Assembly (NCBI GenBank): GCA_945607565.1
Contig: CALYZD010000014.1
Span: forward strand, 1 to 36,287
Origin: an uncultured Bacteroidales bacterium
GTDB lineage: Bacteria > Bacteroidota > Bacteroidia > Bacteroidales > Marinilabiliaceae
Reading direction: 5' to 3'
Length of the DNA stretch: 36,287 nucleotides
Of this stretch, positions 7,540 through 10,643 are shown piece by piece (the stretch's first letter is position 1; every line of letters begins with the position of its first letter). The translations under genes were made by a program, and so were the position numbers. The notes beneath the pieces were generated by a model, which searched no databases, was not told where the DNA came from, and saw nothing but the letters and a program-made list of their open reading frames with translations.

Positions 7540-7699
7540 ATCGGAGGCGGCATTCGGCGTGCGCGCTGTCCGGCCAACTGTCGCCAAAAATCAGCAAGCG
7601 TCGCTCCGGGCTCAACCAGCCGCGCCCGCCGATGTGCAAAAAAGCGTAAAGATGCGGGCAATAGATGGCGCAATCGGACACCGCGCATTCAAAAACCAT

Positions 7700-7707
7700 T
7701 AATTTTG
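7700..7707 (+). promoter_or_regulatory. -7 box TAATTTTG of glnS
   Basis: This is a perfect TAnnTTTG followed by C. Transcription should begin near 7714, so only the ATGs at 7725 and 7737 can be the glnS start. Confidence 0.6.
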
Positions 7708-7736
7708 CTTTCCGAAAACAAAGAATGGAAGAATAT

Positions 7737-9455
7737 ATGAACACCGAGGACAAGGAGTTGAACAACTCCGAACTGAAGACCAACTTCATCTATCAGGAGA
7801 TAGAAGCCGACTTGGCACAGAACAAGAACAACGGGAAAGTCCTGACCCGCTTTCCGCCCGAACCCAACGGATACCTGCACATAGGCCACGCCAAGTCGAT
7901 ATGCCTCAACTTCGGCATAGCGCGCGACTTTGGCGGCGGCTGCAACCTGCGCTTCGACGACACCAACCCCGTCAAGGAAGATGTCGAATATGTCGATTCG
8001 ATAATGGAAGACGTGCACTGGCTGGGCTTCGACTGGGTGGGCGAGCCCCGGTATGCCTCGGACTATTTTCAGCAACTCTACGAATGGGCCGTCAAGCTCA
8101 TCAAAGACGGCAAGGCCTACGTCGACGACCAGACGGCCGAGCAGATAGCCGCCCAGAAGGGCAGCCCCACCGTGCCCGGGCAGGAGAGCCCCTACCGCAA
8201 CCGCTCGGTGGCCGAGAACCTCGAGCTCTTCGAGCGCATGAAACGCGGCGAGTTCGCCGACGGCCAGTGCGTCCTGCGCGCCAAGATAGACATGGCCTCG
8301 CCCAACATGCACATGCGCGACCCGCTGATGTATCGCATCATCCACCGCAGCCACCACCGCACCGGCGACAAGTGGTGCATCTACCCGATGTACGACTTCG
8401 CCCACGGCCAAAGCGACTTCATCGAAGGCATCACCCACTCCATCTGCACGCTCGAATTCGAAGTGCACCGCCCGCTCTACGACTGGTTCCTCGACCGCGT
8501 GCTCGACGGCGCCCCCGAGCCCGAGACGCGCAACCGCCAGATCGAGTTCGCCCGCCTCAACATCAACTATACCGTCATGAGCAAGCGCAAGCTGCTCCGC
8601 CTTGTCAAAGAAGGCATCGTGGCCGGCTGGGACGACCCCCGCATGCCGACCATCTGCGGCCTGCGCCGGCGCGGCTACACGCCCAAGAGCGTCCGCGACT
8701 TCGCCGAGCGCGTGGGCGTGGCCAAGCGCGACAACGTGATTGACATGGCGCTGCTCGAACACTGCGTGCGCGAGGATCTCAACAAGACGGCCCCCCGCGT
8801 CATGGCCGTGCTCGACCCTGTGCGCGTGGTGGTCGACAACTATCCGGCCGACCGCGTCGAGATGGTGGAGGTCGAGAACAACCCCGAAGACCCGACGCAG
8901 GGCACGCGCACACTGCCCTTCTGCAACGAACTGCTGATTGAGCGCGACGACTTCATGGAGAACCCGCCCAAGAAATATTTCCGCCTCGCGCCCGGCACCG
9001 AAGTGCGCCTCAAGGGAGCCTACATCGTCAGGTGCGTGGGCGTCGACAAGGATGCCCAGGGCAACATCACGACCATCCACGTTACCTACGACGCCGACAC
9101 GCTCAGCGGCATGCCCGGCAGCGAACGCAAAGTCAAGGGGACGCTCCACTGGGTGTCGGCACGCCACGCCATCGCCGCCGAAGTGCGCGTCTACGACCGC
9201 CTCTTCAACGACCCCGAGCCGGGCGGCCACGAAGCCGAGGGCCACGACTTTGAGGAGTACCTCAATCCCGACTCGCTCACGGTCATCACCACGGCCCGCG
9301 TCGAGCCCGGCCTAGCCACTGCCCGTCCGCTCGACCACTTCCAGTTCCAGCGCCTGGGCTACTTCAACGTCGACCCCGACTCGGAGCGCGAAGGCAAGCT
9401 GATTTTCAACAAGACAGTAGGCCTCAAAGACAGCTGGGGCAAAGCCGCAAAATAG
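7737..9455 (+). CDS. glnS: Glutaminyl-tRNA synthetase
   Basis: This is a class I aminoacyl-tRNA synthetase of 572 residues that charges tRNA-Gln. The HIGH motif is in [16 protein letters not shown], and the KMSKS-type motif is VMSKRKLL. GlnRS-specific text follows: [34 protein letters not shown] and the two-barrel anticodon-binding C-terminus. The ATG at 7737 is taken because GGAAGA lies just before it; the ATG at 7725 is an in-frame alternative adding four residues. The gene is monocistronic, with a -7 box upstream and a 17-bp terminator downstream. The presence of GlnRS suggests direct charging of tRNA-Gln rather than dependence on transamidation. Confidence 0.96.
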
Positions 9456-9481: not shown

Positions 9482-9526
9482 AGGCGCGGTGCGACAGACA
9501 GTTCTGTCGCGCCGCGCCTTTGGTTT
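9482..9526 (+). terminator. Rho-independent terminator of glnS
   Basis: The arms at 9482-9498 and 9503-9519 pair over 17 bp with one G-U pair and the loop CAGT, followed by a T-rich run. Confidence 0.85.
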
Positions 9527-9530
9527 GCCC

Positions 9531-9686
9531 GACAACGAACGACAATGTTTCTTCTGCGTGCTTTAATTTAAAGTGCGACAACTGGTGACAACTTTTGTGT
9601 GTTGTCGGTTGTTGTCCTTGGTTGTCGATGTTTTTTTAGTGCGACAATCCTTTTTCTTGCCGCGCCATACCAGTTGTCGTGTTGTC
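9531..9686. repeat. Phased GACAAC / GTTGTC array before the ABC/GntR cassette
   Basis: The 357 bases between glnS and the ABC gene hold no convincing gene, but they hold about ten copies of one hexamer in both orientations. GACAAC is at 9531, 9577 and 9587; GACAAT at 9541 and 9643; GTTGTC at 9601, 9611, 9621, 9673 and 9681. Neighbouring copies lie 10 bases apart (8 in the last pair), so they face the same side of the helix. GACAACTGG (9577-9585) is also the inverse of CCAGTTGTC (9670-9678). A multi-site protein-binding region is the simplest reading; the protein is unknown. Confidence 0.75.
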
Positions 9687-9774: not shown

Positions 9775-9799
9775 CAGTGTACTATTAAGGTATAACACT
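9767..9799 (+). promoter_or_regulatory. Candidate YtrA/GntR operator overlapping the promoter
   Basis: TACACT (9767-9772) TGC AGTGTA (9776-9781) is a perfect inverted repeat, and a third half-site AACACT follows at 9794-9799. The repeats cover the -7 box and the expected start of transcription. From memory, YtrA-family repressors bind AGTGTA/TACACT-type half-sites. A YtrA-like gene is the third gene of this operon, so autorepression is likely. Confidence 0.6.
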
Positions 9800-9812
9800 A
9801 AACGAAACGACG

Positions 9813-10643
9813 ATGATAGAGATTAAAAACTTCACGTATGGCTACGGCAAGACCGGGCGATGCGTATTCAGCGATTTCGATTTTCGCTTTGAGCCGGGCT
9901 GCGTCTACGGCCTGCTGGGCGAGAACGGCGTGGGCAAGTCGACCCTGCTCCATGCCATGATGGGCCTGCTGCGGCCGCGCGCGGGGGCTATCCGTTTTGG
10001 CGGCACCGACGTGTGTGAGCGCAGGCCTTCGGTGCTGTCGGACTGCTACATAGTGCCCGAGGAGTACGACCTGCCGCGCATCAGCCTGTCGGATTATGTG
10101 CGCATCAACGCGCCGTTCTACCCCAAGTTCAGTCGCAGCGACTTCGAGCGGTATCTGGCGGGCTTCGAACTGCCGGCCGCGCTCAACCTCAAGAGCCTCT
10201 CGATGGGCCAGAAGAAGAAGGTCGTCATGTGCTTCGCGCTGGCCACCAACGCCTCGCTGCTGCTGATGGACGAGCCCACCAACGGTCTCGACATCCTCTC
10301 CAAGAGCCTCTTCCGCAAGGTGATGGCCCAGGGCATGAACGAGAGCCGCACCATCGTCATCTCGACGCATCAGGTGCGCGATGTCGAGAACATGCTCGAC
10401 CGCGTCGTCATCCTCGGCAGGCAGGGCATCCTCTTCGACCGCACGGTCGACGAGGCGGCGCGACACCTGCGCTTCGGCATCGGCGCGCCGGACGCCATCT
10501 TCGCCGCACCGTCGCTCCAGGGCCTCGCCACCATCAGCCGGGGCGACGGCGTGACCGACTCGGCCGTCAACATCGAGCTGCTGTTCTGCGCCGTCCAGGC
10601 CGACGCGCGGAAAATCAACGATTGTTTCACCAACCAACGCTAA
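9813..10643 (+). CDS. ABC transporter ATP-binding protein
   Basis: This 276-residue nucleotide-binding protein has a Walker A LGENGVGKST near residue 35, signature LSMGQKKK near 128, Walker B LLLMDEPTNGLD near 148 and the H-loop in ISTHQVRD. The C-terminal 60 residues are not part of the core. It probably energises the membrane protein encoded 12 bases downstream. Grouping with a YtrA-type GntR regulator recalls the ytr/bcr-type ABC operons that respond to cell-envelope stress in Firmicutes; that parallel is inference. It is the first gene after the operator region. Confidence 0.92.
   Translation: MIEIKNFTYGYGKTGRCVFSDFDFRFEPGCVYGLLGENGVGKSTLLHAMMGLLRPRAGAIRFGGTDVCERRPSVLSDCYIVPEEYDLPRISLSDYVRINAPFYPKFSRSDFERYLAGFELPAALNLKSLSMGQKKKVVMCFALATNASLLLMDEPTNGLDILSKSLFRKVMAQGMNESRTIVISTHQVRDVENMLDRVVILGRQGILFDRTVDEAARHLRFGIGAPDAIFAAPSLQGLATISRGDGVTDSAVNIELLFCAVQADARKINDCFTNQR

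Follow-up and report, generated by a model that had tools for sequence, protein, structure and literature searches.

A decamer array of GTTGTC words in a Bacteroidales genome: a candidate copy of a lineage-specific, BIME-like intergenic repeat

The stretch of DNA analysed here (the window, 36,287 nucleotides) corresponds to positions 1–36287 of contig C14 in a 2.8-Mb draft genome made up of 190 contigs. Within it, a gene for a glnS-like tRNA synthetase (class I E/Q; 7665–9455, plus strand) is followed by a GC-rich terminator-like hairpin (9482–9519, plus strand), which ends 11 bases before an array of GTTGTC decamers extending over 156 bases (9531–9686, no strand assigned). Beyond the array lie a GntR-type palindrome, AGTGTACTATTAAGGTATAACACT (9776–9799, no strand assigned), and the gene for an ABC transporter ATPase (9813–10643, plus strand), whose start codon is located about 126 bases downstream of the array. 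This gene is succeeded by one without a Pfam match and then by a GntR gene. A scan of the window against Rfam returned two tRNAs and nothing else.

In terms of exact hexamers the array has the arrangement <<<>>>>>, with GACAAC at 9531, 9577, and 9587 and GTTGTC at 9601, 9611, 9621, 9673, and 9681. Two additional words (GACAAT at 9541 and 9643) carry a single mismatch, so that eight words are exact and ten possess the GACAA/TTGTC core, which agrees with the description in the initial annotation of about ten copies in both orientations. The words fall into sub-groups. The first is formed by the units at 9531 and 9541, the latter reading ATTGTC (9531–9546, minus strand, step of 10 bases), and the second by those at 9577 and 9587 (9577–9592, minus strand, step of 10); the second makes an inverted repeat with the third, which consists of three exact units at steps of 10 (9601–9626, plus strand). 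A lone GACAAT unit (9643–9648, minus strand) and a fourth sub-group of two exact units at a step of 8 (9673–9686, plus strand) complete the array.

This cluster is real and far beyond chance expectation. In 5000 dinucleotide shuffles of the region the GACAA/TTGTC core was found on average 0.97 times and never more than five times, as compared to ten times in the array, and any 6-mer attained a count of eight in just 0.05% of dinucleotide shuffles of the array region. Four of the nine neighbour steps are of 10 bases (P = 0.002 for four or more under uniform placement), and both these spacings and that of 8 bases in the last pair are as originally reported. The suggestion that all of these sites lie on the same face of the helix holds only within the individual sub-groups. 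No common helical phase was detected over the full 156 bases (Rayleigh test at 10.5 bp, P = 0.35), and phasing of the entire cluster was therefore rejected as not significant.

Genome-wide counts in this work are based upon pattern searches, for which the reversed pattern served as the control. The exact same-strand pattern GTTGTC-N4-GTTGTC occurs as 10 pairs in the source genome, all of them within four loci, and the reversed pattern is absent from it; the genome-wide count of phased copies that had been proposed earlier, carried out here for exact 10-base pairs, thus supports the view that the repetition is not random. Pairs at other spacings are mostly separated by a multiple of three bases, as would be the case within coding sequence. 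Besides the window, the loci are L063 (contig C15), L064 (C44), and L065 (C79), and the steps in the arrays of this genome are of 10 bases (ten times), 11 (twice), and 8 (once). L063 lies between porP/sprF-like and ompH-like genes, upstream of the latter, and is preceded by a GC-rich inverted repeat that has no run of T. L064 is found between the ispH side and a gene for a T9SS-sorted leucine-rich-repeat protein; the flanks of L065 are an sppA-like gene and a large gene to which no Pfam family could be assigned. At both L064 and L065 the neighbouring genes converge and a terminator-like hairpin is close by, and since these two sites face no promoter, half of the copies serve none. A terminator-like or GC-rich palindrome adjoins all four arrays, and the genes flanking them have no function in common. 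A simple ORF rule places L063 and L064 in an open frame, and genes supported by Pfam lie outside both. A stretch of 36 bases is common to L064 and L065 (94%), which we count as evidence of dispersal, and L063 holds a segment of about 93 bases that has been duplicated internally (78%); it follows that the copies are related and were moved or duplicated.

When 71 genomes of the same family were searched with a three-unit pattern allowing up to two mismatches, 10 matches were obtained in the source genome and 0–2 in each of the others, so that the conservation in relatives by which the initial annotation proposed to check its reading is lacking among these same-family genomes, the others all being from different genera. 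These few matches were not accepted as true arrays, as several are in long open frames and a set of intergenic ones corresponds to a TGTCAT site that resembles a PHO box, next to an OmpR-type regulator. This TGTCAT run (L069, L071, L072, L074, and L075; approximately positions 1501–1526) is intergenic, consists of four words at steps of 10–11 bases, and lies near two genes, one encoding a response regulator of the OmpR type and the other a short secreted protein.

At the level of the order Bacteroidales, 9 of 295 genomes contain a match with at most one mismatch, and many matches are present only in the source genome, G132, G156, and G162 (G266 has three and G048 two). The sampled congeners of G132 and G162 contain none, and those of G156 one or none. 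In a species-level collection, repeated arrays were found, among the matches listed, in the Prevotellaceae drafts RUG483 and bin.26, Prevotella RGIG1450, and several RUG Bacteroidales, and also in Dyadobacter, Ruminococcus, and a Sumerlaeota draft. The multi-copy versions come from rumen Prevotellaceae/Bacteroidales drafts: exact 10-base pairs number 199 in RUG483, 68 in bin.26, 35 in RGIG1450, and 20 in RUG14617, with 0–2 for the control. Because the search word selects for GTTGTC, the arrays of other genomes may be convergent rather than homologous. Viral contigs yielded 63 stretches with the 10-base pattern, 37 with the reversed word, and at least 120 at 9- and 11-base spacing; neither word order nor spacing is special there, and the scattered single arrays in these contigs are background. 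In view of these viral controls and of the many plain GTTGTC decamer tandem repeats that occur in unrelated bacteria and viruses, homology with every public array of this kind was rejected as a general claim.

The anatomy of the arrays was compared in RUG483, bin.26, RGIG1450, and RUG14617. They lie largely outside simple ORFs (52 of the 69 sampled; 12/18, 14/17, 13/17, and 13/17, respectively) in genomes whose intergenic share of sequence is 17–24%, and in most of them the arms are inverted (<<<<>>>> or >><<). The step is of 10 bases in RUG483 and RGIG1450, and of 9 and 10 bases mixed in bin.26 and RUG14617; since in RUG14617 the 9-base steps (28) outnumber those of 10 bases (20), the helical argument is weakened. 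A central hairpin of the type GACGC-(A/G)-GTTGCGTC is present in 10 of 12 RUG14617 loci, and in RUG483 (L584–L599) the palindromic array forms part of a repeat that extends over several hundred bases, with roughly 72–88% identity, and is often located at contig ends. Adjacency to a terminator, observed in the source genome and for 4/17 arrays of bin.26, is hardly seen in RUG14617 (1/17) and not at all in RGIG1450 (0/17), and was rejected as a general rule. No gene family is shared by the flanks of the arrays among 36 loci (71 flanking proteins, 25 families listed), and a single protein of the Phage_integrase family is found among the 71 flanking genes of the other genomes.

Between the two halves of the L063 duplication, no difference is seen at the 30 hexamer positions, as compared to differences at 19 of the 62 remaining positions (P = 2e-4), and the same table is obtained when the hexamers are defined in either copy alone. 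Among 12 RUG483 copies the mean column identity is 0.96 for hexamers, 0.72 for spacers and loop, and 0.90 for flanks. It should be noted that the hexamers were defined as exact matches (taken from the consensus in the case of RUG483), which favours constancy. One of the RUG483 copies has gained two units and another has lost two. The 25-base loop points one way in six copies and is reverse-complemented in the remaining six, and the inner spacers move with it. A site-specific invertible element would have recombinase sites with a conserved crossover core and an invertase next to it; the observations that bear on this comparison are the 6:6 loop orientations in RUG483 and the Phage_integrase protein noted above. 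Small inversions of hairpin loops are known from plastids, where a loop between short inverted arms likewise occurs in both orientations; we know of no case in which the arms of such plastid inversions are phased hexamer arrays.

The position of the array upstream of the ABC start codon, together with that of L063 before the ompH-like gene, could be taken to indicate a cooperative or looping site for the ABC promoter, as the initial annotation had implied by linking it to the ABC/GntR cassette. This link does not survive comparison with the relatives. The array was found upstream of none of 18 ABC relatives, five of which retain the GntR palindrome, and the sister arrays at convergent gene ends are next to unrelated genes. 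Hence, the array does not belong to the ABC/GntR module, and its being an operator of this operon is very improbable. The array is not itself a GntR (YtrA-like) operator, the site for which stands apart from it, and the earlier statement that it is not explained by that operator is upheld. The palindrome, of the form AGTGTACTA-N6-TA..ACACT, would be a usable operator for the module; judging from its retention, the conserved part is the predicted GntR operator and the array a bystander. The same palindrome precedes ABC relatives in several families (L037, L038, L040, L042, and L046, upstream of position 1501).

The inverted arms could alternatively fold at the ends of transcripts into a hairpin that stabilises the mRNA or backs the terminator. 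Such a role would suit the many arrays with inverted arms and the terminators beside those of the source genome, and positions 9571–9631 of the window (z = −3.9) and L065 (z = −5.2) are predicted to fold. However, the L064 hexamers are all on one strand and give no fold (z = +0.7), a segment of L063 has z = −0.7, and the facing spacers of RUG483 match no better within loci than between them (permutation, summed P = 0.98), so that no covariation beyond permutation was found. As the hexamers are constant and the facing spacers do not co-vary, the word appears to be constrained as a word and not as half of a stem, and constant hexamers with changing 4-base spacers fit a site read by a protein better than an RNA hairpin, which we consider an unlikely explanation. 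The arrays could also be a mobile or self-amplifying repeat (MITE-like, or a minisatellite arising by slippage) that is neutral and without function for the host; the constancy of the hexamers would then reflect the needs of a transposase, recombination, or replication. The patchy occurrence, with none or at most one match in sampled congeners, the embedding of the RUG483 array in a longer interspersed repeat, the turnover of its units and inversion of its loop, and the pure decamer tandem repeats of unrelated organisms are all in keeping with this. Slippage, however, would copy whole decamers, and in a simple minisatellite the whole unit would diverge evenly, whereas here it is the spacers that differ while the hexamers stay. 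Neither terminal repeats nor a target duplication came to light, and transposase genes are not recurrent neighbours of the arrays. A neutral origin is regarded as rather doubtful.

The reading that we prefer, with a probability of about one half, is that the array represents a copy of an interspersed intergenic repeat, BIME-like and specific to its lineage, in which the hexamers would be recognised by a protein that probably binds DNA. Such a repeat would be built of short GTTGTC runs about one helical turn apart (10 bases, sometimes 8–11) in both orientations, with copies placed beside gene-end terminators. Each hexamer would most likely be the contact site of this sequence-specific protein, which might bind adjacent units head to tail, by analogy with PhoB/OmpR-type regulators on direct repeats. 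The repeats would spread and change by duplication, gain or loss of units, and inversion, as BIMEs do; they would not regulate a single gene, and might instead affect the insulation of gene ends or chromosome structure. The protein binding advanced in the initial annotation is thus retained as likely in the form of sequence-specific recognition of the hexamers, since spacers and flanks change and hexamers do not, but not on its strict same-face basis. Weighing against our explanation are the presence of only four copies in the source genome, the placing of two of these in open frames by the simple ORF rule, the lack of phased sites beside the OmpR-type regulators found in that genome, the excess of 9-base steps in RUG14617, the origin of the strongest data on spacer change from other genomes whose arrays are perhaps convergent, and the scarcity of terminators beside the arrays of RGIG1450 and RUG14617. 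A broader proposal, which is offered tentatively, is that these arrays form a novel class of intergenic element with GTTGTC-type arms at steps of about one turn, often placed next to or surrounding a GC-rich hairpin that can be exchanged; a dedicated protein would read the constant words among freely exchanged 4-base spacers, and the element would have multiplied independently in scattered members of the Bacteroidales, with turnover of units and inversion of loops.

No description of this element was found in the open-access papers searched, in agreement with the earlier remark that no such element is known. The nearest described kinds are the REP/BIME and TAACTGA repeats. REP/BIME are interspersed palindromic elements associated with RAYT transposases (PMC2817692), which the arrays resemble in being intergenic, dispersed, of alternating orientation, and palindromic in arrangement, with a core that is kept while other parts change (PMC2817692). 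Dispersed intergenic copies in mixed orientation are seen at the four loci of the source genome and in large number in RUG483, bin.26, RGIG1450, and RUG14617. The array unit differs in being a non-palindromic hexamer (GTTGTC-N4) at steps of about 10 bases, with neither a GT(A/G)G head nor self-complementarity and with only four copies in the source genome. The 25 families listed for the 71 proteins flanking arrays in other genomes include no IS200/IS605-type (RAYT-like) transposase. Moreover, REP palindromes retain complementary mutations (PMC2817692), whereas the facing spacers of RUG483 do not. The TAACTGA repeats, reported from Beggiatoaceae, Cyanobacteria, and some Bacteroidetes, are likewise patchy intergenic arrays of a short word with no assigned function; they consist of a heptamer repeated in direct orientation, for the most part immediately before start codons, and the type genome has only a single indirect repeat, with no variable spacer described in the passages considered here (PMC4679880).

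Regulators of the PhoB/OmpR type read tandem direct repeats of 11 bases (PMC4415409), and PHO boxes share with the array short conserved words in tandem, about four free bases, a period near one helical turn, and a TGTC-like core. They are, however, direct repeats of words of about 7 bases with an 11-base period at the promoters of a regulon, whereas the array consists of hexamers at steps of 10, 9, and 8 bases in inverted sub-groups, and two of the four copies are flanked by converging genes. The array also has no cognate regulator nearby: no OmpR-type regulator was found next to any array of the source genome, and none of the three full-length ones found in this genome has phased sites beside it. 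The same-family TGTCAT repeats indicate that phased direct repeats do occur next to such a regulator. Since the array departs from PHO boxes in its period, its location, and the lack of a matching regulator, this comparison is an analogy of working and not one of membership.

If one protein reads the hexamers, the arrays would represent an unrecognised chromosomal binding system or a mobile repeat comparable to BIMEs. To our knowledge, BIME-like repeats have been little described in the phylum Bacteroidota. In genomes like RUG483, with about 200 exact 10-base pairs, the binder should be easy to find, provided that the hexamers are read by a protein. The case also advises caution, in that copies of a local array should be counted genome-wide before it is called the operator of a neighbouring gene.

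Some variant arrays were also observed. Those of G162 (L605, L610, and L614) consist of GTTGTC/GTTGTT words around a GC-rich hairpin of the GAGCC...CGCGAGG type and are absent in two sampled congeners. A looser array of the GTNGTCA type with 10-base steps is present in Dyadobacter (L094, L111, L125, and L182; both orientations) and in G132 (L606). Lastly, one array locus found in two drafts (L157 and L159, from RUG14378 and RUG062) differs between them by extra units of about 23 bases that contain GACAAC.
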